Part shown: piece by piece, positions 9,014-51,393 of the stretch
Layout: each line of letters begins with the position of its first letter
Numbering within the stretch: the stretch's first letter is position 1
Assembly: GCF_963556105.2 (NCBI RefSeq)
Contig: NZ_OY829944.1
Coordinates: 1,647,501-1,711,500 of the forward strand
DNA from: an uncultured Tolumonas sp.
GTDB lineage: Bacteria; Pseudomonadota; Gammaproteobacteria; Enterobacterales; Aeromonadaceae
Direction of reading: 5' to 3'
Length of the DNA stretch: 64,000 nucleotides
The notes under the pieces: generated by a model
Database searches by the model: none
Seen by the model: only the letters and a program-made list of their open reading frames with translations
Told to the model about the DNA's origin: nothing
Translations under genes and position numbers: made by a program

Positions 9014-9024
9014 GTTAATGAGCC

Positions 9025-9348: not shown

Positions 9349-9374
9349 TATCGGCTGTAACACCGATATCATCG
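9343..9374. terminator. Bidirectional terminator-like hairpin
   Basis: Perfect 12-bp stem (CGATGATATCGG and complement) with an 8-base loop between two convergent genes. Flanking T/A runs are weak (TTTTT lies just before it on the plus strand, which serves the minus-strand reading poorly), so strength is uncertain. Confidence 0.7.
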
Positions 9375-9381
9375 GAATATG

Positions 9382-10671: not shown

Positions 10672-10756
10672 AGCAGATTGTCCTCGTTTATCGCGGCCGG
10701 CGAAATTACCACAACCTTCCGGCTATCACCAGAAACAATCGCGTAACCGACAACGC

Positions 10757-34553: not shown

Positions 34554-34720
34554 ATCGGCGTCTCTAGCTGCTGATTAAGTTGAAGTATTGTGCAATATCC
34601 CTGTTCCGCGATATCCAAAATTGTGCGCTATTAGGGCGTTCCATTTTCATTATTGTTCAATTGTGGTGCATTTTGCTGGCTATTCCCAAGAAAAGCCTTT
34701 GTTATCAAGTTGTTTAAAAC

Positions 34721-34735
34721 GGCATGAAACTTGTA
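34721..34735 (+). promoter_or_regulatory. Weak sigma-54-like promoter before nasA
   Basis: GGCATG-N4-TTGTA shows GG and GT with 10 bases between, and the block GGCATGAAA recurs in the nrtA and nirB leaders. If used, transcription would begin near 34745, leaving room for only one hairpin before the terminator. The rest of 34554-34819 holds no gene. Confidence 0.35.
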
Positions 34736-34758
34736 TTAAAAATATTAAATTAGATTTG

Positions 34759-34772
34759 GGACATCGACGTCC
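34759..34772 (+). promoter_or_regulatory. ANTAR-type hexaloop hairpin in the nasA leader
   Basis: GGAC-ATCGAC-GTCC: a four-bp stem with six-base loop, A at loop position 1 and G at position 4, the features required by ANTAR RNA-binding proteins. The 3' arm is also the left arm of the terminator that follows, so the two structures exclude each other. Confidence 0.7.
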
Positions 34773-34802
34773 GCGCTCTCTTAAGGGGCCGGACGTTTTT
34801 TT
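34767..34802 (+). terminator. Intrinsic terminator in the nasA leader
   Basis: Arms ACGTCCG / CGGACGT followed by seven T, ending 17 bp before the nasA ATG. Its position ahead of the gene indicates attenuation rather than termination of an upstream gene, which runs in the opposite direction. Confidence 0.85.
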
Positions 34803-34819
34803 ATTTTTGAGAGGCAAGG

Positions 34820-37438
34820 ATGAGTCGTGTTCATACCAGTTGCACTTATTGTGGCGTCGGTTGTGGGATCACGGTAGATGATGCCAAAACATTAACAGGT
34901 GATACAGAGCATCCTGCGAACAGCGGGGCATTGTGTGTCAAAGGCGGTAGTTTGCTGGAAACGCTGGCGTTTCCTAATCGTCTGTTATACCCGCGATTAC
35001 ATGGTCAACAGGTAGGTTGGGATACTGCGCTCGATGAAATGGCGACACGTTTTAGCCAGATCATTGCGGAAACCGGGCCGGAATCGGTCGCTTTTTATGT
35101 GTCCGGTCAGTTGCTCACCGAAGATTATTATGTGGCTAACAAACTGATGAAAGGCTTCATCGGGGCCGCGAATATTGATACCAACTCCCGCCTTTGTATG
35201 TCTTCAGCGGTGATGGCGCACAGCCGTGCTTTTGGTGAAGATGTGGTGCCCGGTTGTTATGACGATTTGGAACTGGCGGATCTGCTGGTCATCGCCGGTG
35301 CGAATACCGCGTGGACACATCCGGTGATCTTCCGCCGCATCCAGCAAGCGCGTGCACGTCGCCCAGAAATGAAGATGGTGGTGATTGATCCGCGTAAAAC
35401 CATGACCGCAGAACAGGCCGATTTACATTTAGCGGTACGCCCTGGTAGCGATGTCTGGTTATTTAATGGTTTAAGCCGTTATCTGTTGGAACACGATCTG
35501 GTTGATAACGCTTATATCGAAAATCACGTCAACGGCTTTAGTGAGTTGCATGCACTGGTAATGGCGCCGGAATATGAGCTGGCACGGGTCGCGGAAAAAT
35601 GCGGCTTAACCCTCAGTGAATTGCAGACCTTCTACCGCTGGTTTGGTGAGAATGAAAAAGCAGTCACGCTGTTTTGTCAGGGTATCAATCAGTCCAATCA
35701 GGGCACCGACAAAGGTAATAGCCTGATCAACCCGCATCTGTTGACGGGTCGTATCGGCAAGCCGGGCGCATCCCCGTTTTCGATGACCGGACAGCCAAAC
35801 GCGATGGGGGGGCGTGAAGTAGGCGGGCTGGCAACGCAGTTAGCATCACACATGACATTCAACGATGAAAACTGCGATCGCGTGGCTCGTTTCTGGAATG
35901 CGCCCAACATTGCCCGTAAACCGGGCTTAAAAGCCGTGGATATGTTTAAAGCGGTGGGTGAGGGCAAGATCCGCGCATTGTGGGTCATTGCGACCAACCC
36001 GGCGGTGTCGCTGCCTGACTCGGTTCAGGTGCGCGAAGCGCTGGCGAAATGTGAATTTCTGGTGGTGTCTGAAATGACACCGAAAACTGATACCGCGCAG
36101 TTTGCACATCTGTTATTACCTGCGGCTGGCTGGGGCGAACGTTCCGGCACAGTCACCAATTCTGAACGTTGCATGACACGTCAACGTGCGTTCACACAAG
36201 CGCCGGGCGAGGCAAAACCGGACTGGTGGGCATTAACCCAATTAGGTAAACGTCTGGGTTTTGCTGATGCATTCAATTACGACAACACTGCTGATATTTT
36301 CCGTGAACATGCTGAATTGTCCGGTTTTGAAAATACGACACGTCAGTTCGATATCTCTGCGTTGGCAACGATGACCGATGCTGAGTATGAACAATTCACA
36401 CCACGCCAATGGCCGTTACCCGCTGATAAAACTGTAGAAAGCCGCCGTCTGTTTAGCGATGGTGTATTTTCGACCGTCAATGGCCGCGCCAATCTGGTGC
36501 CGGTGACTCCACAAGAGCCAGTTCTCAAACGTAAAGCAGAACGTCAGGAAGGCAGCTGGCTGTTAAATACCGGTCGTCTGCGTGATCAATGGCACACCAT
36601 GACGCGTACCGGTCATCTGCCACGTTTAATGGAAACTGAACCATTACCAAAAGTGTATGTAAACCATCAGACCATTCTGAATAGTGGGTTTACCGAAGGC
36701 GCACTGATCCGCATTAATTCTCTGCAAGGTTCGGTGATGACCTTACTGGGGCGTGATGATGGCCTGCGCGATGGTGAAGCGTTTATGCCTATGCACTGGT
36801 CAGATGATTTCTCATCTTGTTCGGGTGTGAATCGATTGGTGGCGCCGGTAACCGATGCGGTCTCTGGTCAACCCCAATTCAAGCAAACCGAAGTGATGGC
36901 GGAAGCGGTTAATGTGAAATGGCATGGCCTTTGGGTCGGTCAGCATGAACCGGAATTAGAGGTGAGCTGGTGGGCGCGTCGCCCGTTAGATGCGGGGGAA
37001 TGTCGCCGTCTTACCGATGAAAATCGCACTGCCGAGCAAGTCTGGTTCCAACTGGCGCAACAAGGCCGTTGGTTACGCTTACCGCTGAAAGGTGGCTGGC
37101 TGGCGGTGAAGCTCAATCAAGGTCGTATTATCGGTTTGCTGCTGGTGAGCACCACGCATCAGCAAGTGAATATTGATCTGCTGGCTGGGTTGCTGGGCTT
37201 ACCGATGAACAGCACTGCACTTTCTACCACATTGGAACAAGCACTGGCGGGCGATAGCCGCATGATTTGCTCTTGTTTCCGTGTCAGTGAGAAACAGATC
37301 GTTGATGCCATTAGCGAGCAGGGTATTTCAGAATTAAGTGGCCTGCAAAGTTTGCTGCGTTGCGGCACGAATTGCGGCACTTGTGTCGTGGAATTGAAGA
37401 AATTGCTGCACAAACACACCAGTGTTAGTGAAGTTTAG
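34820..37438 (+). CDS. nasA: Assimilatory nitrate reductase, catalytic subunit
   Basis: 872 residues. It reduces nitrate to nitrite in the cytoplasm with a Mo-bis-MGD cofactor. The N-terminal [4Fe-4S] cysteines are in CTYCGVGCG; molybdopterin domains follow (GANTAWTHPVIFRRI, FCQGINQSNQGTDKGN, TGQPNAMGGREVGG). A C-terminal BFD-type [2Fe-2S] domain (CSCF...CGTNCGTC, about 815-860) matches the long NasA form. GAGAGGCAAGG precedes the ATG. No NasC-type reductase is seen here, so the electron donor lies elsewhere or is NirB or ferredoxin/flavodoxin. Confidence 0.96.
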   Translation: MSRVHTSCTYCGVGCGITVDDAKTLTGDTEHPANSGALCVKGGSLLETLAFPNRLLYPRLHGQQVGWDTALDEMATRFSQIIAETGPESVAFYVSGQLLTEDYYVANKLMKGFIGAANIDTNSRLCMSSAVMAHSRAFGEDVVPGCYDDLELADLLVIAGANTAWTHPVIFRRIQQARARRPEMKMVVIDPRKTMTAEQADLHLAVRPGSDVWLFNGLSRYLLEHDLVDNAYIENHVNGFSELHALVMAPEYELARVAEKCGLTLSELQTFYRWFGENEKAVTLFCQGINQSNQGTDKGNSLINPHLLTGRIGKPGASPFSMTGQPNAMGGREVGGLATQLASHMTFNDENCDRVARFWNAPNIARKPGLKAVDMFKAVGEGKIRALWVIATNPAVSLPDSVQVREALAKCEFLVVSEMTPKTDTAQFAHLLLPAAGWGERSGTVTNSERCMTRQRAFTQAPGEAKPDWWALTQLGKRLGFADAFNYDNTADIFREHAELSGFENTTRQFDISALATMTDAEYEQFTPRQWPLPADKTVESRRLFSDGVFSTVNGRANLVPVTPQEPVLKRKAERQEGSWLLNTGRLRDQWHTMTRTGHLPRLMETEPLPKVYVNHQTILNSGFTEGALIRINSLQGSVMTLLGRDDGLRDGEAFMPMHWSDDFSSCSGVNRLVAPVTDAVSGQPQFKQTEVMAEAVNVKWHGLWVGQHEPELEVSWWARRPLDAGECRRLTDENRTAEQVWFQLAQQGRWLRLPLKGGWLAVKLNQGRIIGLLLVSTTHQQVNIDLLAGLLGLPMNSTALSTTLEQALAGDSRMICSCFRVSEKQIVDAISEQGISELSGLQSLLRCGTNCGTCVVELKKLLHKHTSVSEV

Positions 37439-37461
37439 TCGCCAGAGATGAGGGCCAGAAA

Positions 37462-38223
37462 ATGAAAGGATTTGTTTCGTTAGTTGGGGCCGGCCCCGGT
37501 GACCCGGATCTGTTGACGGTAAAAGCGCTGCGCTCTATTCAGCAAGCCGATGTGGTGGTTTTTGATCGTTTGGTCAGTGACGACATTCTTCAACTGATTC
37601 CTGCGTCGGCAGCACGTTACGATGTCGGTAAACGCTGCGGTCAACCGAGTCTTAAGCAGGAAGATATCTCCGAATTACTGGTGACACTGGCTGGGAAATA
37701 CAAACGGATTGTCCGACTTAAAGGTGGTGATCCGTATGTGTTTGGTCGTGGCGGTGAAGAGGCACTGTTACTGGTCGCGAATGGCGTACCGTTTGAAGTC
37801 GTGCCAGGAATTACCGCTGCCATTGGTTGTGCGGCAGCAACCGGTATTCCGCTAACGCATCGTGGGTTATCTCGTTCGGTGACGCTGGTGACGGGTCATG
37901 TGCAAGACGGCAGTGAATTTCACGGCTGGAGTGGTTTAGTCAAAGCAGGTGGCACTTTGGTGTTTTATATGGGGCTCGAGCGCGCAACGGAATTGCGCCG
38001 CGGGTTATTGCAAGCGGGGGCACCGGCTGATCTGCCAATTGCCTTAGTCGTGGCAGGCACGACGCGTCGGCAACGGGTTGAGGTCACGACATTAGCGTGT
38101 CTGGAACAAACCGCACATACTTTAACTGGGTTAACACCCGTTTTGATGATCATGGGTGAGGTGGTTCAGTTACGTGCCGAATTAGGTGATATGGCAGAAA
38201 CCTTACTGCAATCGGTAGCCTAG
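37462..38223 (+). CDS. cobA: Uroporphyrinogen-III C-methyltransferase (SUMT)
   Basis: 253 residues. It methylates uroporphyrinogen III to precorrin-2 with SAM. Motifs are VGAGPGDPDLLTVKAL at 7-22, VFDRLVS, GKRCGQPSLKQEDI and VVPGITAAIGCAAATGIPLTHR. It is the single-domain form without the CysG dehydrogenase/ferrochelatase part. Within a nitrate operon its job is sirohaem supply for NirB. It lies 23 bp behind nasA. Confidence 0.93.
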   Translation: MKGFVSLVGAGPGDPDLLTVKALRSIQQADVVVFDRLVSDDILQLIPASAARYDVGKRCGQPSLKQEDISELLVTLAGKYKRIVRLKGGDPYVFGRGGEEALLLVANGVPFEVVPGITAAIGCAAATGIPLTHRGLSRSVTLVTGHVQDGSEFHGWSGLVKAGGTLVFYMGLERATELRRGLLQAGAPADLPIALVVAGTTRRQRVEVTTLACLEQTAHTLTGLTPVLMIMGEVVQLRAELGDMAETLLQSVA

Positions 38224-38244
38224 TTCTTCTATTAGGAATCATGG

Positions 38245-38805
38245 ATGAGTTATTCGAAGATCCTGATTTATAGCGACGATATAGCCCAGGCCAACCGCCT
38301 GGGTTTGTTGTTAAGTCGTTATGGTCATGAGCCTTATTTAGTCCGGCAAATCGACCCTATGCACCCTCCGGGTGATATTCATGGGGTGATGATTGATTGC
38401 CGGCGTTTACCCGCAGAATGGCGTTTAGTGGCATCGGCCATGGCAAGCCAAGGGTTGCCAGTAGTCGTGTTTATGGAAAATTTACCTGAAAGCCAGCAGC
38501 AAGTGTTATTGGAAGCTGGCGTCACGCTGGTGCCGCATCGTGTCGAAGAGAAAGAGCCGGTAGAAAGCTGGCTGAAACAAGCTCGTCTGCAACAAGAGGT
38601 CATGCGCAAACAGCAACTGGCGGTTGATGATCTCTCCAAACGGTTGGAAGAAAATAAGCTGGTGCAACAAGCTAAAGCACGTTTGATGAAAGTTCAGGGT
38701 TTAGACGAAGAGACCGCTTATAAAGTGATGCGTTCCACCGCAATGAAGAATCACCAGACTATGGGTGATCTTGCTCGCAAAATTCTCGCCACGCTGGTTG
38801 ACTGA
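38245..38805 (+). CDS. ANTAR-domain RNA-binding antiterminator (NasT-type)
   Basis: 186 residues: a receiver-like N-terminal domain (about 1-110), a coiled-coil linker (RLQQEVMRKQQLAVDDLSKRLEENK) and a C-terminal ANTAR domain (AKARLMKVQGLDEETAYKVMRSTAMKNHQTMGDLARKIL). It lacks the NIT nitrate-sensor domain of Klebsiella NasR and so resembles NasT, which normally works with a NasS partner; none is seen here. Its probable targets are the hexaloop leaders of nasA, nrtA, narK and nirB. The nrtA leader starts right behind its stop. Confidence 0.9.
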   Translation: MSYSKILIYSDDIAQANRLGLLLSRYGHEPYLVRQIDPMHPPGDIHGVMIDCRRLPAEWRLVASAMASQGLPVVVFMENLPESQQQVLLEAGVTLVPHRVEEKEPVESWLKQARLQQEVMRKQQLAVDDLSKRLEENKLVQQAKARLMKVQGLDEETAYKVMRSTAMKNHQTMGDLARKILATLVD

Positions 38806-38894
38806 TCCGGTGCGAATGCACCGATTTGAAACAGAACTTCTTATAAATTCGTTAAAAAATGCATAAAAAAGCCATCTTTTAAGGGGTTTTAAGA

Positions 38895-38911
38895 TTGGCA
38901 CGAAAGCTGAA
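38895..38911 (+). promoter_or_regulatory. Sigma-54-like promoter before nrtA
   Basis: TTGGCACGAAAGCTGAA fits the -24 element fully (TGGCACG), with CTGA at -12 instead of TTGC. The nirB leader carries the same element (one change). Transcription would start near 38921, just before the first hexaloop hairpin. This agrees with Ntr control known for nas operons. Confidence 0.55.
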
Positions 38912-38934
38912 TGTATCAAAATTGTAAACGGATC

Positions 38935-38948
38935 AGCCAACGACGGCT
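38935..38948 (+). promoter_or_regulatory. First hexaloop hairpin (P1) of the nrtA leader
   Basis: AGCC-AACGAC-GGCT: a four-bp stem with six-base loop, A1 and G4 present. It lies 19 bases before the second hexaloop hairpin, so together they form the two-hairpin ANTAR motif. Confidence 0.65.
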
Positions 38949-38967
38949 TCCTACAATTTGGTAACTC

Positions 38968-38981
38968 AGGCAATGGCGCCT
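38968..38981 (+). promoter_or_regulatory. Second hexaloop hairpin (P2) of the nrtA leader
   Basis: AGGC-AATGGC-GCCT, loop A1 and G4 present. The 3' part is shared with the left arm of the terminator at 38977, so protein binding here would block termination. Confidence 0.7.
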
Positions 38982-39012
38982 CACTGGAATGAACCAGTGA
39001 GGCGTTTTTTTT
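38977..39012 (+). terminator. Intrinsic terminator in the nrtA leader
   Basis: Perfect 11-bp stem (CGCCTCACTGG and complement), six-base loop and eight T, ending 11 bp before the nrtA ATG. It is a strong terminator placed to attenuate nrtABC. Confidence 0.92.
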
Positions 39013-39023
39013 GGAGCAATGGA

Positions 39024-40388
39024 ATGATCAAATTAAAACGCAATGCAGTGGCTTTGATGGTAAGTGCAGTATTAGTTTCAACTGCGGTGCAGGCGCAGGT
39101 TGGCGCCCCTGAGAAAGAAGAGCTGAAATTAGGTTTCATCAAATTAACCGACATGGCACCACTGGCAGTGGCCTACGAAAAAGGTTATTTCGAAGATGAA
39201 GGGCTGTATGTCACGCTGGAAGCACAAGCCAACTGGAAGGTGTTGCTCGATCGCGTGATCACCGGTGAATTAGACGGTGCACACATGCTGGCTGGCCAAC
39301 CGCTGGGCGCCACCGTGGGTATCGGCACCAAAGCTGATGTTGTGACTGCGTTTAGCATGGATCTGAATGGTAATGCGACTACGGTTTCCAATAAAATCTG
39401 GGACGCGATGAAAGCCAATGTACCAAAAGGTGCAGATGGTAAGCCCGTGCATCCAATCAAAGCCGATGTTTTGAAACCAGTCGTTAAGTCTTACAAAGAC
39501 CAGGGTAAGGCCTTCAATATGGGCATGGTGTTCCCGGTTTCTACCCATAACTACGAATTGCGTTATTGGTTGGCGGCGGGTGGTTTGAACCCGGGTTTCT
39601 ATGCTCCGCTGAAAGGGGACAACACCGGACAGCAACAAGCCGATGTGCTGTTGTCAGTGACACCGCCACCACAAATGCCCGCCACGCTGGAAGCCGGCAC
39701 CATCTTAGGTTACAGCGTCGGGGAGCCCTGGAACCAGGCTGCAGTAGCGAAAGGTATCGGTGTGCCGGTCGTGACTGATGATGATGTCTGGCACAACAAC
39801 CCCGAGAAAGTTTTCGGCGTGTCGAAAGCCTGGGCAGACAAATATCCCAATACTCACATTCATTTAGTAAAAGCGTTGATCCGTGCCGCTTACTGGTTGG
39901 ATCAAAACAACAACGGCAATCGTCAGGAAGCAGTCAGCATGCTGGCTAAACCTGAATACGTGGGCGCGGATGCTAAAGTGATCGCGAACTCCATGACTGG
40001 CACCTTTGAATTCGAAAAAGGTGATAAGCGTCCGGCTGCTGATTTCAACATCTTCTTCCGCCATAACGCGACTTACCCGTATTACTCCGATGCGATTTGG
40101 TATCTGACACAAATGCGTCGTTGGGGCCAGTTGCCAGAAGCCAAACCAGACAACTGGTATGCCGATATCGCGAAGAAAGTATATCAGCCCGAAATTTACC
40201 GTCAGGCCGCAGAAGAGCTGATTGCGGAAGGCAAAATGAAGGCGAGCGATTTTCCTGATTTCGCGAAAGAGACTGGTTACAAGGCACCGGATAACCACTT
40301 CATTGATGGCATTACCTACGATGGCCACAAACCTAACGATTATCTGAAGCAATTCCCGATAGGTTTAAAAGGCGATCAGAAGCTGTAA
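39024..40388 (+). CDS. nrtA: Nitrate ABC transporter, periplasmic binding protein
   Basis: 454 residues from ATG 39024, which has GGAG seven bases upstream and gives a proper signal peptide ([24 protein letters not shown], Sec cleavage after VQA). A longer frame would start inside the attenuator. The body resembles NrtA/CmpA/Nas[45 protein letters not shown]. It binds nitrate in the periplasm for NrtBC. Confidence 0.92.
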
Positions 40389-40389
40389 T

Positions 40390-40513
40390 TACCCTTCGTA
40401 CTTGAAGTTGCAGCATCGTTGACGACGTTCACTTACCCCAATCACATAGCATCTCTATGCTCATGGGGATTCGTTCACTTGTCGCCTCGCTGCAACTCCA
40501 ATTACTTTGGGTA
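40390..40513. repeat. ERIC/IRU-type palindromic repeat between nrtA and nrtB
   Basis: A 124-bp element begins TACCCTTCGTACTTGAAGTT and ends with CCAATTACTTTGGGTA, giving near-inverted ends. Its centre (ACCCCAATCACATAGC, then GCTCATGGGGATTC) matches the enterobacterial repetitive intergenic consensus. It starts right after the nrtA stop and lies inside the operon, so it would be transcribed and could fold into a long hairpin. Confidence 0.85.
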
Positions 40514-40557
40514 TTAAGTTGAAATTAGGACTAAGGCTGAAGTAAGGAGAGTCAACC

Positions 40558-41496
40558 ATGTCAGCATTACTGAATATCAAATGGCAAAATATGGCGTTTC
40601 CATTCGTGGGTCTGCTTGCCTTCCTGTTCTTCTGGCAAATTGCTGCCAGTCAGGTCACTACTACACTGGGCTCTTTACCGGGCCCAGTCGCCACCGCCCA
40701 GCAATTTATGGGCTTGGTGGATGAACACAAAGCAGAACAACAAAAGAAAACCGCCTTTTATCAACGTCAGGAGCAACGTAATGCTGACAAGTTAAAAGCC
40801 GATCCTGCTTTCAAAGCGACGGTGCGCCCGTATACCGGACGCCCAACCTTTTTTGATCAGATCACCACCAGCCTGATCACCGTGGCGACCGGTTTTCTGG
40901 TTGCCAGTCTGCTCGCCATTCCGATGGGCATCATCCTTGGCTTGAATCAGTGGATGTATCAGGCGCTGAATCCGGTGATTCAGATCCTGAAACCGATCTC
41001 GCCACTGGCGTGGTTGCCGCTGGTGACTATGGTGGTGAGTGCGGTTTATTCCAGCGATAGCCCGGTAGTAGCCAAATCATTCATCAACTCGGCATTCACG
41101 GTAACACTGTGCAGCCTGTGGCCCACATTGCTGAACACCACTGTGGGTGTTGCCAACATCGACCCAGACTTAAAAAACGTCAGTCGTGTATTGAAACTCG
41201 ACCCGTTGACGCATGTGCGCAAGATTGTACTGCCATCAGCGATCCCGATGATTTTTACTGGCCTGCGTTTGTCGCTGGGCGTGGCGTGGATGGTGCTGAT
41301 TGCGGCAGAAATGCTGGCGCAAAACCCCGGCTTAGGCAAGTTCGTGTGGGATGAATTCCAGAACGGCAGCTCACAGTCACTGGCACGCATCATGGTTGCC
41401 GTCGTTACGATTGGCTTCATCGGGTTCATGCTGGATCGCGGCATGCTGCAACTGCAGAAATGGTTCTCTTGGGATAAACGCAGTGAACTGCGCTAA
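40558..41496 (+). CDS. nrtB: Nitrate ABC transporter permease
   Basis: 312 residues with about six transmembrane helices. The permease EAA-type loop is LKLDPLTHVRKIVLPSAIPMIFTGLRLSLGVAWMVLIAAEML (about 215-255). A hydrophilic insert (about 60-100, EHKAEQQKKTAFYQRQEQRNADKLK) is typical of NrtB/NasE. GGAGAG precedes the ATG. It is separated from nrtA by the ERIC-type repeat. Confidence 0.93.
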   Translation: MSALLNIKWQNMAFPFVGLLAFLFFWQIAASQVTTTLGSLPGPVATAQQFMGLVDEHKAEQQKKTAFYQRQEQRNADKLKADPAFKATVRPYTGRPTFFDQITTSLITVATGFLVASLLAIPMGIILGLNQWMYQALNPVIQILKPISPLAWLPLVTMVVSAVYSSDSPVVAKSFINSAFTVTLCSLWPTLLNTTVGVANIDPDLKNVSRVLKLDPLTHVRKIVLPSAIPMIFTGLRLSLGVAWMVLIAAEMLAQNPGLGKFVWDEFQNGSSQSLARIMVAVVTIGFIGFMLDRGMLQLQKWFSWDKRSELR

Positions 41497-41514
41497 TTAA
41501 TAGGGATATTGAAA

Positions 41515-42345
41515 ATGAGCAAAACCTATCTCGATTTAAGTGCCGTGGGCATGCGTTTCAAAACCGACAAAGGCTTCTTTGAAGCACTGGTTGATGTGAA
41601 CCTGAAAATTGCCAAGGGCGAGTTTATCTCCCTGATCGGCCACTCCGGTTGTGGGAAAAGCACCGTGCTGAATTTGGTTGCCGGTCTGACCGAAGCCACG
41701 TCCGGCGGCATCATTCTCGATGGTCGCGAAGTTGATGGCCCGGGCCCGGAACGTTCAGTCGTGTTCCAAAACCACGCGCTGCTGCCATGGTTATCGGTCT
41801 ATCAGAACGTTGAACTGGCGGTGCGTCAGGTCATGAAAGAGGCCAGCAAAAAAGAGATTGAAGAGAAAGTGCGTTACTACCTGTCGTTAGTGCAGATGGA
41901 TCACGCGTTGGATAAGAAACCGCATGAGATCTCCGGCGGGATGAAACAGCGTGTCGGTATCGCCCGTGCGTTGTCGATGTCACCAAAAGTGCTGTTGATG
42001 GATGAACCCTTTGGTGCATTAGATGCCCTGACGCGTGCGCATCTGCAAGATTCGGTCATGGAAATTCAGGCAGAACTGAACAACACCGTCATCATGATCA
42101 CGCATGATGTGGATGAAGCCGTGCTGTTGTCTGACCGTATCGTGATGATGACCAACGGCCCGTCGGCCACCGTGGGTGAGATCCTGAATATCGATCTGCC
42201 GCGTCCGCGTGATCGGGTTGAATTAGCCGATAACCCGCATTATCACCATTTACGTCAGCAGGTGCTGAGTTTCCTGTATGAAAAACACAACAAAGTGACC
42301 CGCTTGAAAACGACTAAAACGACGAAAAGTAGTGCCGTAGCGTAA
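41515..42345 (+). CDS. nrtC: Nitrate ABC transporter ATP-binding protein
   Basis: 276 residues from ATG 41515 (TAGGGA upstream). Walker A GHSGCGKST, signature SGGMKQRVGIARAL, Walker B VLLMDEPFGALDAL and the switch His (MITHDVDEAV) are all present. It powers NrtAB, and is the short form without the C-terminal NrtA-like domain of cyanobacterial NrtC. Its 3' end (42247-42340) recurs as a decayed copy before nirB. Confidence 0.94.
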   Translation: MSKTYLDLSAVGMRFKTDKGFFEALVDVNLKIAKGEFISLIGHSGCGKSTVLNLVAGLTEATSGGIILDGREVDGPGPERSVVFQNHALLPWLSVYQNVELAVRQVMKEASKKEIEEKVRYYLSLVQMDHALDKKPHEISGGMKQRVGIARALSMSPKVLLMDEPFGALDALTRAHLQDSVMEIQAELNNTVIMITHDVDEAVLLSDRIVMMTNGPSATVGEILNIDLPRPRDRVELADNPHYHHLRQQVLSFLYEKHNKVTRLKTTKTTKSSAVA

Positions 42346-42410
42346 AGCTTCAGCTAACCAGGAATAGTTATTTATCTATCTATATATCTATTCCTCAACA
42401 TACCAACTTA

Positions 42411-42424
42411 GAGCAAAGGCGCTC
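42411..42424 (+). promoter_or_regulatory. ANTAR-type hexaloop hairpin in the narK leader
   Basis: GAGC-AAAGGC-GCTC, six-base loop with A1 and G4. Loop and 3' arm are shared with the left arm of the terminator that follows. Upstream lies an AT-rich stem (AGGAATAG / CTATTCCT, 42360-42395) with a 20-base loop, which is not a hexaloop. I see no promoter here. Confidence 0.65.
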
Positions 42425-42477
42425 GCCTCTTCCCTGAATCTTTCGGTATCAGTGGGGGAGCGAGCGCCTTTTGGTTT
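42415..42477 (+). terminator. Intrinsic terminator between nrtC and narK
   Basis: Arms AAAGGCGCTCG / CGAGCGCCTTT (11 bp, extended inward by CTC/GAG and C/G pairs) followed by TTTTGGTTTG. It lies ahead of the narK ATG. It can act as the end of nrtABC or as an attenuator for narK. Confidence 0.85.
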
Positions 42478-42502
42478 GTTTCCAAGACAAGATGGAATCA
42501 GT

Positions 42503-43972
42503 ATGAAACAAGATAATAAATTTAATATGCTGTCATTTACCGGCAAAATGAAGATTCTTCATCTGAGTTGGATTGCCTTTTTTATTACCTTTGTGGTGTG
42601 GTTTAACCATGCTCCATTGTTAGGCTCGATTGCCAAATCATTGGATATCAGCATGGCTCAGGTAAAAACGTTGCTGATCCTGAACGTGGCGTTAACCATT
42701 CCGGCCCGTATCATTATCGGCATGTTGACCGATAAGTTTGGCCCGCGTCTGACCTACAGCTTTTTGCTGTTTGCTGGCAGTCTGCCTTGTTTCTGGTTTG
42801 CATTTGCCACTGATTTCACTCAGTTAGCGATGGCCCGTTTACTGCTCGGTTTTGTCGGTGCCGGATTTGTCATCGGTATCCGTATGGTCAGTGAGTGGTT
42901 TCCGGCCAACGAACTCGGTATCGCCGAAGGCATCTATGGCGGCTGGGGTAATTTCGGTTCGGCAGCAGCAGCGATTGCCATGCCAACATTGGCCCTGTTT
43001 TTTGGCGGTGAAAATGGCTGGCGCTACGCAGTGGCAATGTCCGGTTTGATTTGTCTGGCTTTCAGTGTGATTTGGTACTTCAATGTGTCCGATTCACCGA
43101 AGGGCTCTACCTATTTTAAATCTAAAAAAATGGGCGGGTTGGAAGTGACCAGCAAAGGCGATTTCTTCTTCCTGCTGCTGATGAAACTGCCGATGTATAT
43201 TGCGCTGGGGCTGGTTGGCTGGAAATTGTCACCGCACGGCGTGGCACTGATTTCCAATACGATGACCACGGTGTTGTATGTCATTTTTGCGGCGATTCTG
43301 ATTTACGACTGCGTCAGTTCCTATCGGGTCAATAAGGATATTTTTCATACCCCGGTGCCCGAGATCCAGCGTTATCAGTTTAAGCAGGTCGCGGCAGTCA
43401 ATATCCTCTATTTCACGACCTTTGGCTCTGAACTGGCGGTAGTTTCCATGTTGCCGCTGTTCTTTGCTGATCTGTTTAAGCTGGATATGGTGCATGCCGG
43501 ATTGGTGGGTTCATTGTTTGCCTTTATGAATCTGGTGGCACGACCTAGCGGTGGCTGGCTCAGTGATCGTTTCGGTCGCAAAAAGACCTTGATGTTCGTC
43601 ATCGCCGGTCTGGCAATGGGTTACTGTGCCATGTCGATGATCACCAATGCCTGGCCATTATTCCTGGCGGTATTGGTGGTGATCGCCTGTTCATTTTGTG
43701 TACAGGCTGGGTGTGGCGCCGTGTTCGCCGTTGTGCCGCTGATTAAGCGCCGCCTGACCGGTCAGATTGCCGGGATGACCGGAGCCTATGGCAATACTGG
43801 GGGGGTGTTCTTTCTGACGGTGCTGTCACTGGTGGATTACTCAACCTTTTTTATCGTGATTGCAGCTACCGCGATTTTGGGGATCATCGCCATCCTGTTT
43901 ATGAACGAACCGCGCGGCCATATGGTTGAAATTAATGAAGATGGTTCGGTAGAACTCATCAAAGTCGGTTAA
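42503..43972 (+). CDS. narK: Nitrate/nitrite MFS transporter (NarK/NasA family)
   Basis: 489 residues from ATG 42503; the longer GTG frame would start inside the terminator. It has twelve transmembrane segments and the nitrate/nitrite porter signatures GMLTDKFGPRLTYS, GFVGAGFVIGIRMVSEWFPANELGIAEGIYGGWGNFGSA and CVQAGCGAVFAVVPLIKRRLTGQIAGMTGAYGNTGGVFF. It provides a second nitrate or nitrite route next to NrtABC. It is followed by a strong terminator. Confidence 0.92.
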   Translation: MKQDNKFNMLSFTGKMKILHLSWIAFFITFVVWFNHAPLLGSIAKSLDISMAQVKTLLILNVALTIPARIIIGMLTDKFGPRLTYSFLLFAGSLPCFWFAFATDFTQLAMARLLLGFVGAGFVIGIRMVSEWFPANELGIAEGIYGGWGNFGSAAAAIAMPTLALFFGGENGWRYAVAMSGLICLAFSVIWYFNVSDSPKGSTYFKSKKMGGLEVTSKGDFFFLLLMKLPMYIALGLVGWKLSPHGVALISNTMTTVLYVIFAAILIYDCVSSYRVNKDIFHTPVPEIQRYQFKQVAAVNILYFTTFGSELAVVSMLPLFFADLFKLDMVHAGLVGSLFAFMNLVARPSGGWLSDRFGRKKTLMFVIAGLAMGYCAMSMITNAWPLFLAVLVVIACSFCVQAGCGAVFAVVPLIKRRLTGQIAGMTGAYGNTGGVFFLTVLSLVDYSTFFIVIAATAILGIIAILFMNEPRGHMVEINEDGSVELIKVG

Positions 43973-43987
43973 TCTTTAGTTATGACA

Positions 43988-44013
43988 ACGGCTATTGATC
44001 AATAGCCGTTTTT
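43988..44013 (+). terminator. Terminator after narK
   Basis: Nine-bp stem ACGGCTATT / AATAGCCGT around GATC, followed by five T, starting 15 bp after the narK stop. It is a standard intrinsic terminator, though the next gene starts only 28 bp later. Confidence 0.88.
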
Positions 44014-44041
44014 CTATTTCTGACACGATGAGTGACGCAGC

Positions 44042-45769
44042 ATGGCAAAATCCCTTCAGATCCGGGTCGGTGGCTATTCCATTGCGGGGCAAAAAGCCAT
44101 CAATCAGGATGCCTTTGCCGTCAAGATCCCCAATGGCCGTGAGCTGGAGCAGAAAGGCGGCGTCGCGGTCATTGCCGATGGCGTCAGCAGTTGTGAAGAC
44201 TCGCATATTGCCAGTCAGACCGCGGTAACGAGCTTCATCAATGATTATCTGAGCACCTCTCCAAACTGGAGTGTCAGCACCAGTGCCTCTAAGGTCATTT
44301 CCAGCCTGAACCGCTGGCTCTATCAGAAAAACCAGCAAAACCACGGCGTCAAAGACAGCATGTTGACGACATTCACCGCAGCGGTGGTGAAATCATCCAC
44401 GCTGCATGTGTTTCATGTCGGCGACACGCGGATTTATCTCTACAGCAACCAACAACTCGAAAAACTCACCACGGATCATGTCGCGACCAGCGGCAAACGC
44501 ACGCACCTGACCCGCGCACTAGGGGCCGATTCCCACCTTGAAGTTGATTATTTGAAACGCTTACTCAGGGAGGGCGATCGCATCATTATGACCTCCGATG
44601 GTGTGCATGGTGTGCTGACATCGGAAATGATGCGTGAGGTACTTGAACGTGAACATGACCCGGAGGCGCAAGCTAAGGCGCTGGTTAATCTGGCGTTGTA
44701 TAAAACCAGCGATGATAATCTCACCGCGCTGATTCTTGCCGTCGATTCGCTGCCTAATGAAACACTAGATGAAACGCAGCAACGGCTGACGCAATTGCCC
44801 ATTCCGCCTGTATTGCAGCTGGGCAATAAAATAGATGGTTATGAGGTGCTGGATATTATCTTCAGCGGCACGCGCAGCCATATGTATAAAGTCAAAGACA
44901 GTGAAACCGGTGCGTTGTTTGTGCTCAAAGCGCCGTCTGAATATTTCACCGAAGATCTGCTGTATCTGGATGGTTTTATCCGCGAAGAGTGGGTCGGGCA
45001 GACCATTGATCATCCCAATGTAATGAAAACTTATAAGCCGCTGCGTCCGAAACAGTTTATGTATTATCTGGGCGAATATATTGTTGGCTGCGATTTACGA
45101 ACCTGGATCAATGAGCACCCTGAGCCAGCCTTAACCGAGGTTAGAGAGATCACCAAACAGATCATTGCCGGATTACGTGCTTTTCAGCGTAATGACATGG
45201 TGCATCAGGATTTAAAACCGGAAAACATCATGCTCACGGTCGATGGCAAGGTCAAGATCCTCGATTTTGGCACCGTGCTGGTCGCTGGCAGTCAGGAGAT
45301 GAATTCACCGCTGGATAAATCGATCCCGCAGGGCAGTGTGAATTACATCGCACCGGAGTATCTGATGGGATTATCCGGCACCATGCGATCTGACCTATTT
45401 TCGTTAGGCGTCATTGTCTATGAGATGCTGGTCGGCAAACTGCCTTATAAAGAGCGTTCGCCGCGAGCGGGCAAATTAAACAGTTATGCTGAATTGACCT
45501 ATACGCCGGGAAAATACTTCCGCAAAGATCTGCCGGTCTGGGTGGATGCTGCATTACAAAAAGCATTACAGCCCGATCCGGAAAATCGTTACGAGGCATT
45601 TTCTGAGTTCTTAACCGATATTTCAGCACCGAACCGGGCGTTGGAAGCGGATTTACAGCATCGCCCGATCTTGGAAAAGAACCCGGTTTTATTTTGGAAA
45701 CTGACGGCTTTGGCTTTATTACTGGGAAATTTGTTGCAGATGTTTTATCGCATTTTTAATGCAAGCTAG
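44042..45769 (+). CDS. Fused PP2C-type phosphatase and Ser/Thr protein kinase, membrane-anchored
   Basis: 575 residues. The N-terminal PP2C domain (about 1-245) has QDAFAV, VIADGVSS, FHVGDTRIYLY and IIMTSDGVH. The kinase domain (about 265-530) has VLKAP (ATP Lys), HQDLKPENIML (catalytic loop) and ILDFGTV (DFG). A C-terminal helix (FWKLTALALLLGNLLQMFY) anchors it in the membrane. Relatives occur in nitrate assimilation clusters of pseudomonads; the target is unknown. A single protein with opposing activities could set a phospho-switch on transport or reduction. Confidence 0.92.
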   Translation: MAKSLQIRVGGYSIAGQKAINQDAFAVKIPNGRELEQKGGVAVIADGVSSCEDSHIASQTAVTSFINDYLSTSPNWSVSTSASKVISSLNRWLYQKNQQNHGVKDSMLTTFTAAVVKSSTLHVFHVGDTRIYLYSNQQLEKLTTDHVATSGKRTHLTRALGADSHLEVDYLKRLLREGDRIIMTSDGVHGVLTSEMMREVLEREHDPEAQAKALVNLALYKTSDDNLTALILAVDSLPNETLDETQQRLTQLPIPPVLQLGNKIDGYEVLDIIFSGTRSHMYKVKDSETGALFVLKAPSEYFTEDLLYLDGFIREEWVGQTIDHPNVMKTYKPLRPKQFMYYLGEYIVGCDLRTWINEHPEPALTEVREITKQIIAGLRAFQRNDMVHQDLKPENIMLTVDGKVKILDFGTVLVAGSQEMNSPLDKSIPQGSVNYIAPEYLMGLSGTMRSDLFSLGVIVYEMLVGKLPYKERSPRAGKLNSYAELTYTPGKYFRKDLPVWVDAALQKALQPDPENRYEAFSEFLTDISAPNRALEADLQHRPILEKNPVLFWKLTALALLLGNLLQMFYRIFNAS

Positions 45770-45774
45770 GTCAC

Positions 45775-45804
45775 AGAATCTTCGCCATGCTGGTTGACTG
45801 ATCT
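45775..45804 (+). pseudogene. Remnant of the 3' end of an ANTAR gene copy
   Basis: It encodes ..IFAMLVD and a stop, almost the same as the last codons of the ANTAR gene (ILATLVD, 38780-38805), and the similarity continues into the following GGTGC/GCACC palindrome and leader. It starts six bases after the kinase stop. This is the left edge of a duplicated block. Confidence 0.75.
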
Positions 45805-45892
45805 GGTGCAATTGCACCGTCGTGAATCACGAAAACCTCATAAAACCGCTAAAAATACATCTAAAGGCTATGTTTTATGTGACTTTTAAAAC

Positions 45893-45908
45893 TGGCATGA
45901 AAGCTGAA
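45893..45908 (+). promoter_or_regulatory. Sigma-54-like promoter before nirB
   Basis: TGGCATGAAAGCTGAA, one base from the nrtA element at 38896-38911. The predicted start near 45918 places the leader RNA as in nrtA. The conservation within an otherwise diverged duplicate suggests it is used. Confidence 0.5.
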
Positions 45909-45980
45909 TGTATCTAAATTGTTAACGGATTAGCCAACCTGTCTTCCCAACAACTTGGCTTTCCAACAATTTGGTCACTC

Positions 45981-45994
45981 AGGCAATGACGCCT
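45981..45994 (+). promoter_or_regulatory. ANTAR-type hexaloop hairpin (P2) in the nirB leader
   Basis: AGGC-AATGAC-GCCT, with loop A1 and G4 as in the nrtA copy (AATGGC). The first hairpin is altered here: AGCCAA pairs with TTGGCT (45931-45960) across a 17- to 18-base insertion instead of a six-base loop. Confidence 0.65.
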
Positions 45995-46025
45995 CACTGG
46001 TTAATTCCAGTGGGGCGTTTTTTTT
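45990..46025 (+). terminator. Intrinsic terminator in the nirB leader
   Basis: Eleven-bp stem CGCCTCACTGG / CCAGTGGGGCG (one G-T) with six-base loop and eight T, homologous to the nrtA terminator. It lies 119 bp before the nirB ATG, so it attenuates nirBD and what follows. Confidence 0.9.
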
Positions 46026-46028
46026 GAG

Positions 46029-46135
46029 CATTACGCCAGCAGGTGCTGACACAGTAACCGGCGTGAAGAGTGCTAGAACCACTAAAACGGATTTAATTGG
46101 AATCGATCCAATCAAAATAGTGCCGTAGTTTAAGG
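46029..46135 (+). pseudogene. Decayed copy of the nrtC 3' end
   Basis: 46029-46049 matches nrtC 42247-42268 except for one indel and one change (core CAGCAGGTGCTGA). ACTAAAACG (46081) and AAAATAGTGCCGTAG (46114) match the last codons of nrtC (42313 and 42324). No open frame remains. It is the right edge of a duplicated block whose nrtA, nrtB and most of nrtC were lost. Confidence 0.75.
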
Positions 46136-46144
46136 AACATAAAC

Positions 46145-48664
46145 ATGAGCAAGCAACGTCTGTTAGTCGTCGGTAACGGCATGGTTGGCCACCACTTTGT
46201 TGAACAACTGGTCAACGCAGGTGGTCTGGAACAATTCGAAGTCACCGTATTAGGTGCAGAACCTGATAGCGCCTATGATCGGGTACATCTGTCCGAAGTT
46301 TTCGGCGGTCGTGCACCGAAAGAGCTGCAGATGGCTGATCCAGAATGGTATGCCGAAAAAGGCGTGTCACTGATCCTGAGCTGCAAAGCGGAATCGCTGG
46401 ATCTGGCAAACAAGACTATTACTTCCGAACAGGGCGAATCTTATGTTTTTGACAAAATGGTACTGGCAACCGGTTCTTATCCGTTCGTTCCACCTATTCC
46501 TGGTCACGATCGTAAAGGTTGTTATGTCTATCGCACGCTGGCTGACCTGGATGAAATCCGTGATGCCTGTGCTGGTGGCCGCACCGGTGTGGTTGTTGGT
46601 GGCGGTTTGCTGGGGCTGGAAGCGGCTAACGCGCTGCGTCTGCTCGGTCTGGAAACGCACGTTATTGAATTCGCACCACGCCTGATGCCGGTGCAGCTTG
46701 ATCCGGTTGCCGGTGATCTACTGAAAAGCAAAATTGGCAGTTTGGGCGTTAAAGTGCTCGTGGATACCGCGACAGACAAAATCGTCGATGGCGAAGGTGC
46801 GCTGCACCGCATGATGTTTAAAGACGGTTCATATCTGGAAACCGATGTGATCCTGTTCTCTGCCGGTATCCGCCCGGAAGATCGTCTGGCCCGTCAGGCG
46901 GGTCTGGCTGTCGGCGAACGTGGTGGTATCACCATTGATGAACAGTGTGTGACGTCGCATCCGGATGTGCTGGCGATCGGCGAGTGTGCACTGTGGTCAG
47001 GTAAGATTTTTGGTCTGGTAGCCCCTGGCTATCAGATGGCTCGCTCTGCGGTCAGCACATTACTGGGTGGTGAAACCCGCTTTAAAGGTGCCGATATGAG
47101 CACCAAACTGAAACTGATGGGCGTTGATGTGGGCGCCATCGGTGACAGCCATGCCGCCACTGAAGGCGCACAAGAATTACTGCTGCTGGATCGTCCTTCT
47201 GGCATCTACAAAAAATTGGTCACTGATGAAACCGGCAAATTCCTGCTCGGTGCGATCCTGATTGGCGATAACAGCGATTACGATCAACTGCTGCAGTTTT
47301 ATCTGAACAAGATGGAGCTGCCTGATCCGGCTCTATCATTGTTACTGCCGGAAGGCGGTAGTGCGAAACCAACGTCACTGGCGCTACCAGATACCGCGAC
47401 CATTTGTTCTTGCCATAACGTCACCAAAGGCGATGTGGTGGCAGCGGTCAAAGCGGGTAATCACACCGTGGCGGATATCAAAGCCTGCACCAAAGCCGGT
47501 ACTGGTTGTGGTGGTTGCTCGAACCTGCTGAAACAGGTGGTTGATCAGACATTGACTGAAATGGGTATGGAAGCGAATAACCATGTCTGTGAACACTTTG
47601 CGTTTACCCGTCAGGAGCTGTTTCATCAAATTCGCGTCGGTGAGTTGAAAACCTTTGAACAGGTGTTGAGCAAGCATGGCAAAGGCCGTGGCTGCCACAT
47701 CTGCAAGCCGATGATTGGTTCCATCATGGCGTCATTGTGGAACGACCACATTCTGGAAAAGCCGCATCAACCGTTGCAAGACACCAACGATGCCTTCCTC
47801 GGTAACCTGCAAAAAGATGGTACCTATTCCATCGTGCCACGGATTGCCGGTGGTGAAATTACCCCCGACAAGCTGATTGTGCTCGGTCAGGTGGCAAAAA
47901 AATACAACCTCTACACCAAAGTGACTGGCGGTCAGCGTATTGACATGTTTGGGGCGCGCGTTGATCAACTGCCGGTGATCTGGAAAGAGCTGGTCGATGC
48001 CGGTTTTGAAACCGGTCATGCCTACGGCAAATCGCTGCGTACTGTGAAATCGTGTGTCGGTTCGACCTGGTGTCGTTACGGCGTCAAAGATTCTGCCGGC
48101 ATGGCGGTAACGCTGGAGAACCGTTACAAGGGCATTCGTGCGCCGCACAAAATCAAGTTTGCGGTTTCCGGTTGCACCCGTGAATGTGCTGAAGCACAAA
48201 GCAAAGATTTTGGCGTGATTGCCACCGAAAAAGGCTGGAACTTGTATGTCTGCGGTAACGGCGGGATGCGCCCTCGTCATGCCGATCTGTTTGCCACCGA
48301 TTTGAGCGATGAAGACTTAATCAAATACATCGATCGCCTGATGGTGTTCTACATCCGTACTGGTGACCGTCTGCAACGTACTTCCGTGTGGATGGAAAAC
48401 ATGGAAGGCGGTCTGGATTACCTGAAATCGGTCATCATCAACGACAAGCTCGGTATCGTTACTGAACTGGAAGATCAGATGCAGCACCTGATCAATACCT
48501 ATCAGTGTGAATGGAAAACCACCATTGAAGATCCGGAAAAACTGAAACGTTTTGCACCTTTCCTTAACAGTGATGAGGCGTATATGCCGCCACGTCAAAT
48601 CGTGCGTGAACAGGCGATCCCTAAAGCGGATGAAGAGTTAATTTTAATCAAGGAGTTGGTATGA
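46145..48664 (+). CDS. nirB: Assimilatory NAD(P)H nitrite reductase, large subunit
   Basis: 839 residues. It reduces nitrite to ammonium in the cytoplasm with six electrons from NAD(P)H. FAD motif VVGNGMVGHHFVEQL, NAD motif GVVVGGGLLGLEAANAL, BFD [2Fe-2S] domain (CSCH...CTKAGTGCGGC, about 420-460) and sirohaem/[4Fe-4S] domain (SCVGSTWCRYG, SGCTRECAEAQ, about 638-685) are in the usual order. TAAGGA precedes the ATG. It overlaps nirD by four bases (ATGA). Confidence 0.97.
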   Translation: MSKQRLLVVGNGMVGHHFVEQLVNAGGLEQFEVTVLGAEPDSAYDRVHLSEVFGGRAPKELQMADPEWYAEKGVSLILSCKAESLDLANKTITSEQGESYVFDKMVLATGSYPFVPPIPGHDRKGCYVYRTLADLDEIRDACAGGRTGVVVGGGLLGLEAANALRLLGLETHVIEFAPRLMPVQLDPVAGDLLKSKIGSLGVKVLVDTATDKIVDGEGALHRMMFKDGSYLETDVILFSAGIRPEDRLARQAGLAVGERGGITIDEQCVTSHPDVLAIGECALWSGKIFGLVAPGYQMARSAVSTLLGGETRFKGADMSTKLKLMGVDVGAIGDSHAATEGAQELLLLDRPSGIYKKLVTDETGKFLLGAILIGDNSDYDQLLQFYLNKMELPDPALSLLLPEGGSAKPTSLALPDTATICSCHNVTKGDVVAAVKAGNHTVADIKACTKAGTGCGGCSNLLKQVVDQTLTEMGMEANNHVCEHFAFTRQELFHQIRVGELKTFEQVLSKHGKGRGCHICKPMIGSIMASLWNDHILEKPHQPLQDTNDAFLGNLQKDGTYSIVPRIAGGEITPDKLIVLGQVAKKYNLYTKVTGGQRIDMFGARVDQLPVIWKELVDAGFETGHAYGKSLRTVKSCVGSTWCRYGVKDSAGMAVTLENRYKGIRAPHKIKFAVSGCTRECAEAQSKDFGVIATEKGWNLYVCGNGGMRPRHADLFATDLSDEDLIKYIDRLMVFYIRTGDRLQRTSVWMENMEGGLDYLKSVIINDKLGIVTELEDQMQHLINTYQCEWKTTIEDPEKLKRFAPFLNSDEAYMPPRQIVREQAIPKADEELILIKELV

Positions 48665-48990
48665 GCTGGCAGAAAATTTGCGAATTGAACGACCTGATTG
48701 AACATTCCGGCCGTACTGCATTAGTAAATGGGAAACAGGTAGCGGTGTTTTATATCCCGAATGAAATACCGTCTGTGTATGCACTGGATAATTGGGATCC
48801 GCTGGGTGAAGCCTTTGTTCTCTCGCGCGGTATTCTCGGCGATATTCAGGATGAGCTGTGTGTCGCATCGCCTTTGTATAAGCAGCATTTCGCACTGGCC
48901 GATGGGCGTTGTTTAGACGCACCAGGGATCGCGGTAAAAAGTTGGCCGGTCGATGTACGTGGCAATGAAGTCTGGTTAAAAGCGGAATAA
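48661..48990 (+). CDS. nirD: Nitrite reductase small subunit
   Basis: 109 residues with a Rieske-like fold without the Rieske cysteine/histidine pairs, as usual for NirD (KQVAVFYIPNEIPSVYALDNWDPLGEAFVLSRGILGDIQDELCVASPLYKQHFALADGRCLD). It is required for NirB activity. It is coupled to nirB by overlap. Confidence 0.95.
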   Translation: MSWQKICELNDLIEHSGRTALVNGKQVAVFYIPNEIPSVYALDNWDPLGEAFVLSRGILGDIQDELCVASPLYKQHFALADGRCLDAPGIAVKSWPVDVRGNEVWLKAE

Positions 48991-51250: not shown

Positions 51251-51280
51251 ACAAATGAGACAACAGGTTCAACAAACAAA

Positions 51281-51391
51281 ACACACCGAGCGTCACCGCC
51301 TAAGTCACCGATAAGGCGATGCCGCCGAGCAGCAGCGATGTTGCGAGGGTCAGTAAAGAAATGCACTGGCCTCCCGAATTTGGAAAGGTGT
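51281..51391 (+). promoter_or_regulatory. Moco (molybdenum cofactor) riboswitch upstream of moaA
   Basis: It ends with GGCCTCCCGAATTTGGAAAG then GTGTTTATG, and contains the stem GGTCAGT / ACTGGCC around AAAGAAATGC. This corresponds in shape and position to the E. coli moaA Moco RNA (stem changed by compensating bases, loop GAAATG and CTCCC/GGAAAGGTGT kept). The 5' arm ACACACC can pair with GGTGT. The RBS is inside the aptamer, so translation control is likely. Confidence 0.88.
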
Positions 51392-51393
51392 TT

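Follow-up and report, generated by a model that had tools for sequence, protein, structure and literature searches.

We found that, in a 64,000-nucleotide stretch of the genome of an uncultured Tolumonas sp. (contig NZ_OY829944.1, positions 1,647,501 to 1,711,500; hereafter the window, with positions counted from its first letter and genes and leader elements all on the + strand), the genes nasA, nrtA, narK and nirB of one nitrate cluster are each preceded by a leader in which a small hairpin with a six-base loop, here called P2, overlaps an intrinsic terminator. These four leaders are probably nitrate-responsive transcription attenuators read by a single NasT-like ANTAR protein, the gene of which (38245-38805) lies in the same cluster, and NasT-type antitermination appears to be the best reading of the sequence and of its likeness to known systems. 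ANTAR proteins canonically target a double hexaloop (PMC3369931). The leaders of nasA, narK and nirB are candidate natural single-hexaloop ANTAR attenuators.

Each P2 hairpin has a 4-bp stem, a C:G closing pair and a hexaloop with A at position 1 and G at position 4 (A1/G4), namely ggacATCGACgtcc before nasA (34759-34772, loop ATCGAC), aggcAATGGCgcct before nrtA (38968-38981, AATGGC), gagcAAAGGCgctc before narK (42411-42424, AAAGGC) and aggcAATGACgcct before nirB (45981-45994, AATGAC). In all four leaders the composite scan and folding place the P2 3' arm within the left arm of an intrinsic terminator, at 34766-34797 for nasA (from the fold; composite score 19), 38977-39004 for nrtA (terminator scan and covariation alignment), 42417-42469 for narK (terminator scan; a long interrupted stem) and 45989-46018 for nirB (terminator scans and covariation alignment). 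The initial terminator scan did not pick up the nasA terminator, and a simple scan allowing loops of 3-8 nt listed the nirB terminator and not the long, interrupted one of narK. Upon folding, the terminator is more stable than the P2-enforced fold by 9.1-15.5 kcal/mol across the four leaders, and transcripts ending just past P2 form P2. Two claims of an earlier note on this DNA, that hairpins with A1/G4 six-base loops stand before the four genes and that their 3' side is the left arm of a terminator, are thereby confirmed in the window, and relatives also keep such loops beside the terminators, bar the nasA leader of locus L077 and the nrtA leader of L082, which have G at loop position 1. Its further claim that position 6 is always C holds for the four window leaders and is not a rule in relatives, where C was observed in 16 of 18 recognised nasA leaders (one row among the 18, L067, being mis-assigned) and in 16 of 23 recognised nrtA leaders.

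Next, we investigated how often such composites occur by chance, in 740,924 nt comprising both strands of the window and of 20 fetched loci. The scan yielded 71 hexaloop/terminator composites, and those with C:G closing, A1/G4 and a terminator score of at least 26 lie solely before nasA, nrtA, narK or nirB. When the window is taken by itself, the C:G-closed A1/G4 composites scoring above 16 are just the four leaders, with one further composite of this kind, at score 16, inside cobA at 37922.

The shared arm covaries with both of its partners. P2 and terminator were aligned over 25 stretches from the window and 18 loci, chosen from 44 with none from narK, the long stretches (narK, L080 nasA) and near-duplicates being omitted. 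The shared arm is paired with the P2 5' arm in 99% of cells, with 20 double-change cells, and the same columns are paired with the terminator 3' arm in 90.5%, with 38 double-change cells, versus 31-57.5% in slid controls for both pairings. This double covariation fits an either/or switch, and the aligned sequences show mutually exclusive covariation of the shared arm for leaders of the nasA, nrtA and nirB types, narK lying outside the alignment. Additionally, P1 and P2, the two hexaloop hairpins of dual leaders, each display double changes in a 13-row alignment of such leaders.

Covariance models were searched against the genome of the window and against 22 others. In its own genome the dual model returned the nrtA leader (expectation value E 2.1e-16) and the nirB leader (2.1e-12), with the next match at chance level (0.10); one own-genome match of this model, L085, lies within coding sequence, of a gene that by eye is proC, and was set aside as chance. 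The P2 and terminator model returned nirB, nrtA and nasA, all of them model rows, at E 1.8e-7 to 1.4e-5, the next match being a porin leader at 0.16. Among the 22 other genomes, 20 have a leader scoring E<=0.0013; 14 of them contributed model rows, and the six that did not (G155, G154, G153, G156, G213 and G099) have leaders at 7.3e-8 to 0.0013. For G047 and G025, which have no match to this ANTAR protein, the best model scores are just 0.18-0.20, none below 0.17, and in G153 and G156 leaders are present though no ANTAR gene was found in these 87%-complete assemblies. Further candidates were rejected upon examination: L099, before a glnK-like gene, has no hexaloop stem and probably terminates the gene ahead of it, and seven more among the stronger rows in relatives (L152-L158) looked like coding sequence or chance terminators.

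The genome contains one ANTAR gene, the one within the nitrate cluster (PF03861, 2.2e-16). It encodes a NasT/AmiR-like protein of 186 amino acids, with a receiver-like domain, a coiled coil and ANTAR, the last being its only Pfam match. The structural model has a predicted local distance difference test score of 91, its best PDB matches by Foldseek are AmiR, EutV and Rv1626, and Pfam, model and Foldseek together give the NasT architecture of a receiver-like domain plus ANTAR. By sequence the closest solved ANTAR protein is NasR (5.2e-7), and Pfam detects no nitrate-sensing NIT domain of the NasR type in the 186 amino acids. Receiver domains carry Lys before the Pro matching P97; here that position is Val, and D50, located in the third strand of the Tolumonas model, is Ser in several relatives. 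Five of the nine RNA-contact residues considered for EutV are kept (Lys149, Glu160, Tyr164, Arg168 and Met172, from an alignment read by eye). The earlier reading of the leaders as ANTAR-type attenuators, the presence of one ANTAR gene and the persistence of the A1/G4 rule in relatives are all supported at the sequence level.

Upon comparing the leaders with one another, we find that the nirB leader is a paralogue of the nrtA leader, as their alignment demonstrates: 45766-46031 matches 38770-39019 at 204 of 245 bases (83%), with a score of 138.8 versus a maximum of 43.8 in 200 shuffles. The copied cassette starts about a dozen codons before the end of the ANTAR gene; besides this 3' tail it comprises a palindrome and a sigma54-like promoter, followed by the P1 region, P2 and the terminator. 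The palindrome, GGTGCnnnnGCACC, stands ~73 bp 5' of the promoter element on both sides, as CGGTGCnnnnGCACCG at 38808-38823 before nrtA, where it is a candidate activator site, and as TGGTGCAATTGCACCG at 45804-45819 before nirB; its half-sites resemble those of NtrC, in opposite order. The sigma54-like promoters lie at 38895-38911 for nrtA (consensus score 20/25) and at 45892-45908 for nirB (18/25), and rpoN was found in the genome. The earlier note had assigned an independent origin or divergence to three of the loops, which fails for nirB and is possible for nasA and narK only, since the leaders of these two have no similarity to the others above shuffles. It had also placed the narK and nirB leaders inside what would otherwise be one operon, a placement to be qualified for nirB, whose cassette brings its own sigma54-like promoter; for narK no promoter of either the sigma54 or the sigma70 type was seen. 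Descent of all four leaders from one ancestor was rejected, as only nrtA and nirB align beyond shuffles, and so was the window narK leader as a cassette copy; copies of that kind do occur before narK in L065, L148 and L150.

Among the four window leaders nrtA alone carries a second canonical A1/G4 hexaloop, P1 (agccAACGACggct, 38935-38948), with 19 nt between the P1 and P2 stems (18-22 in nine Tolumonas). The single-hairpin picture drawn earlier is right about P2 at all four genes; it missed P1 at nrtA and its absence elsewhere, and the account of ANTAR binding given with it, which fits as to A1/G4, did not weigh the canonical double hexaloop. We gathered 21 cassettes via the palindrome pattern and a T-run or terminator, so that these features are present by construction. 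P1, with C:G closing and A1/G4, is found in nine of nine Tolumonas nrtA cassettes and in none of 12 nirB or narK cassettes, and the P2 rule is obeyed in all 21, P2 having been read irrespective of its loop letters; the comparison establishes that the copies lack the P1 hexaloop and retain P2. At the P1 site of the copies a hairpin persists whose loop, 4, 5 or about 16-17 nt long, has no common sequence, and in the nirB leader of the window it has the stem AGCCAA/TTGGCT and a 17-nt loop (45932-45960). Across the nrtA leaders at large, P1 candidates occur in 15 of 23 recognised (25 examined), one of them, in L070, judged spurious, and P1 is otherwise missing in an Aeromonas-like group; a P1-like element arises in 0.028 of 70-nt stretches under mononucleotide shuffling. 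The automatic P2 finder behind these counts missed five of 23 nasA and two of 25 nrtA leaders in addition to mis-assigning L067; in L003, L069 and L072 a separate scan recognised P2 without P1, and in L076 and L077 P2 was read by eye.

The surroundings of the nirB cassette preserve traces of its origin. Between the nirB terminator and nirB lies a remnant of the nrtD 3' end (46031-46144), whose similarity exceeds all 500 shuffles in five of seven genomes, the score being equalled by 2 of 500 in L003 and L005. In all 15 non-Tolumonas loci showing both genes (L068-L082), as well as in Tolumonas L004, nirB comes after nrtD without narK or a kinase gene intervening, and no P2 and terminator match lies between the two genes there; the cassette stands upstream of nirB in nine of 10 Tolumonas loci with sequence at that place. 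The simplest history, we infer, is that the stretch from the nasT tail to nrtD was duplicated around narK and the kinase gene and that most of the second nrtABD was then lost. The nirB leader would accordingly have derived from that of nrtA, in a cassette with palindrome and sigma54-like promoter, as narK and the kinase gene came between nrtD and nirB, and would subsequently have lost the P1 hexaloop. In the cassette tree the nrtA copies fall on one side (86/98) and the narK copies group together (85/90) with seven of the nine nirB copies, the other two nirB copies being nearer the nrtA side with weak support; two of 17 inner branches are starred. In L065, L148 and L150, where a further cassette precedes narK, the older narK leader behind it has lost its T-run or right arm. 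Adjoining this further cassette, between nrtD and narK, we also observe a block of LysR regulator, Old-Yellow-Enzyme-like and SnoaL-like genes (names by eye), at 8635-11300 (oriented) in L065 and also in L148 and L150, seen whole in L065 and L148.

The leaders of nasA and narK differ in what precedes P2. A sigma54-like promoter is predicted at 34719-34735 before nasA (consensus score 18/25) and is common to Tolumonas nasA leaders; from the predicted +1 to P2 there are 12-13 nt in eight Tolumonas (~13 nt in the window), so that these leaders, as predicted, have little room for a P1, and no P1 was detected in any of the 18 recognised among 23 examined nasA leaders. In the narK leader of the window no second A1/G4 hexaloop occurs upstream of P2, where a hairpin without such a loop is formed by AGGAATAG and CTATTCCT (42360-42395); the best sigma54-like score there is 12/25, and no sigma70-type site was seen on the + strand. 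The older narK leader is present in the window, L064 and L147, and L005, without narK and kinase gene, has kept the nirB leader together with a trace, by eye, of a narK-like one.

Under the proposed mechanism, the nascent leader would form the terminator in the absence of the signal and transcription would stop; with the signal, the ANTAR protein would hold the P2 hexaloop hairpin, and RNA polymerase would read through because the P2 3' arm is also the left arm of the terminator. The nrtA leader would use the classical pair of P1 and P2, and those of nasA, narK and nirB would use P2 alone or P2 with a plain hairpin. Protein binding, nitrate dependence, sigma54 start sites and read-through without P1 are what we infer from this arrangement.

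Several observations weigh against it. Shuffles reached further pair types in 491 (P2), 51 (terminator) and 127 (dual alignment) of 500 cases, the alignment rows are mutually related, and the covariance-model search, which recovered the other three leaders as rows of its own model, left narK, outside the model, at chance level in its own genome (E 3.0). Three relatives (L003, L063 and L066) have no narK leader, and the -12 element of the nrtA and nirB promoters is imperfect (CTGAA). Four of the nine EutV contact residues differ here (Arg142, Asn173, Arg175 and Arg177). NasS was not found in the genome, in a search run without a NasS positive control, where PF13379 matched only NrtA and a urea-type binding protein, and the link to nitrate therefore comes from gene context; in 11 relatives the one strong PF13379 match each (E<=1.6e-96) is NrtA beside nasT, with weaker matches (<=71.5 bits), identity not assigned, in 10 of the 11. 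Among known systems, antitermination by EutV requires, according to published work, two hexaloops with a tight linker; between the hexaloops of EutP RNA there are 7 unmodelled nt (PMC8934654), versus the 19 nt at nrtA. Deletion of P1 at eutP abolished induction (PMC3369931) and the affinity of NasR for a lone P2 is ~12 times weaker than for P1P2 (PMC7496416), so that P2-only leaders are expected to work poorly by the known rules. Furthermore, it was the upstream hairpin HI, not HII, that mattered in Paracoccus (PMC5424462), and in Bradyrhizobium, where a NasT hairpin is predicted for narK, narK levels went up in a nasT mutant (PMC6759348).

One alternative, which we consider unlikely, is that each of the four leaders is an ANTAR target with two sites, the first site of nasA, narK and nirB being a non-canonical hairpin invisible to an A1/G4 search. 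The leaders of nirB and narK do have a plain hairpin at the P1 position, as do, by eye, nrtA leaders of the Aeromonas-like group, a single EutX hexaloop is described by its G4 (PMC8934654), and a weak, A:U-closed ACGGAT hexaloop occurs in five of seven nirB leaders. However, the P1-site loops vary in length as given above and have no sequence in common, the Tolumonas nasA leaders leave just those 12-13 nt from the predicted +1 to P2, and the ACGGAT candidate, which would compete with the outer stem, is missing in L066 and L005. Somewhat less plausible still is the reading of the nirB and narK leaders as copies in decay, that is, leaky or constitutive terminators outside ANTAR control. The loss of the P1 hexaloop in 12 of 12 copies, the visible decay of the old narK leader behind the newer cassette in L065, L148 and L150 and the three relatives with no narK leader would suit it, but all 12 copies, that of distant L005 included, have retained P2 and terminator while the P1 surroundings drift; the cassette collection itself required a terminator, yet among the Tolumonas loci fetched we saw no P2 site on the nirB side that lacked a terminator. 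Moreover, a strong unrelieved terminator before nirB would shut off nitrite reductase. That these are ordinary terminators of upstream genes with coincidental hexaloops is very improbable, although those of nrtA, narK and nirB do each follow another gene (the ANTAR gene, nrtD and the kinase gene), given the double covariation, the C:G/A1/G4 rule at unrelated leaders, the lack of such strong-terminator composites elsewhere in the scan and the lack of matches below E 0.17 in the two genomes without this ANTAR gene.

Returning to attenuation by the ANTAR protein, the chances seem about even that the P2-only leaders of Aeromonadaceae nitrate clusters, with a promoter and leader cassette copied to new operons, represent natural single-hexaloop ANTAR attenuation, 12 of 12 copies being without the P1 hexaloop, through one loss or several, because a nearby promoter or a plain hairpin would make the P1 recruitment hairpin dispensable for a NasS-independent NasT. 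PMC8934654 leaves undecided to what extent a single hexaloop can fulfil ANTAR function, and we found no natural P2-only ANTAR attenuator at a terminator and no copied ANTAR leader in the open-access literature, excluding supplementary tables (e.g. Table S2 of PMC3369931).

The cluster resembles the NasS-NasT systems of Paracoccus, Azotobacter, Pseudomonas and Bradyrhizobium in having a NasT-like receiver-like plus ANTAR protein among nitrate genes; there, leader hairpins and termination have been proposed or shown before nasA, nosR, nirA and narK (PMC6759348, PMC5424462, PMC3795266). Unlike those, Tolumonas has no NasS that we found and shows cassette copying; within its one cluster four units have leaders, and in three of these leaders the second hexaloop is absent. 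One ANTAR protein serving four leaders per cluster, with P2 overlapping the terminator, is already known from EutV/EutW of the Enterococcus faecalis eut genes (PMC3369931, PMC8934654), and four leaders per cluster are therefore not new; in contrast to Tolumonas, however, all four eut leaders have both hexaloops, the need for both being shown at eutP, and EutV, a response regulator, is phosphorylated and comes with a kinase. The nasF leader of Klebsiella oxytoca shares the setting of nitrate assimilation and the C:G-closed A1/G4 hexaloops, which NasR also selected in systematic evolution of ligands by exponential enrichment, whereas NasR itself senses nitrate via its NIT domain and nasF has both P1 and P2 (PMC7496416). 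Here a dual leader, the single-hexaloop copy of it and two single-hexaloop leaders unrelated to them face one protein in one cluster, and the other Tolumonas examined have variants of this combination. This set amounts to a natural experiment that makes the single-hexaloop question directly testable, and it shows how an attenuator can spread, the block having moved with its promoter and left gene remnants as tracks. A motif search demanding two A1/G4 hexaloops would overlook three of the four leaders. Going by a title alone, P. aeruginosa nirBD-PA1779-cobA is also reportedly subject to antitermination, as a nirBD operon serving nitrate assimilation.

A fifth candidate leader, of which we have six copies from five genomes, precedes an alginate_exp-type porin gene (PF13372) and consists of a GG-N10-GC promoter-like element, ggcAATGATgcc (3-bp stem) and a terminator. 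In the genome of the window it lies outside the window (L098 1460-1807; G000:C1, ~24.7 kb), and the porin reading frame there is internally deleted, encoding 80 amino acids versus ~400 in the whole genes of relatives. At 0.16 here, and not among the matches at E<=0.5 in four relatives carrying the gene, it is a weak candidate.

Finally, the cluster runs in the order nitrate reductase (nasA), cobA, ANTAR gene, nrtA-nrtB-nrtD, narK, PP2C-kinase fusion, nirB and nirD. The assimilatory nitrate reductase gene nasA (34820-37438; Pfam Molybdopterin, Molydop_binding and Fer2_BFD) and the tetrapyrrole methylase gene cobA (37462-38223; PF00590) bear the names used here, and the Pfam search identified the nitrate ABC (ATP-binding cassette) transporter genes nrtA (39024-40388; the signal peptide of NrtA was assessed by eye), nrtB (40558-41496) and nrtD (41509-42345), as well as the PP2C phosphatase-Ser/Thr kinase fusion (44042-45769). 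Nitrite reductase is encoded by nirB (46145-48664), recognised by its domains, and nirD (48661-48990), recognised from position, length and conservation next to nirB. The nitrate/nitrite transporter gene narK (42503-43972; TIGR00886) is 82.5% identical in DNA to that of the close relative L063, versus 92-94% for nrtD and the 5' part of nirB, and the window narK may have been exchanged through recombination. Between narK and the kinase gene lies a plain terminator (43984-44015), AACGGCTATTgatcAATAGCCGTT with a T-run, the left arm of which contains AACGGC without a hexaloop stem. At gathering thresholds the Rfam search of the window returned no ANTAR family, its sole match being a molybdenum/tungsten cofactor (Moco) riboswitch (RF01055, 86.3 bits) at 51272-51406, 2.3 kb 3' of nirD and in the same nitrate/molybdenum neighbourhood.

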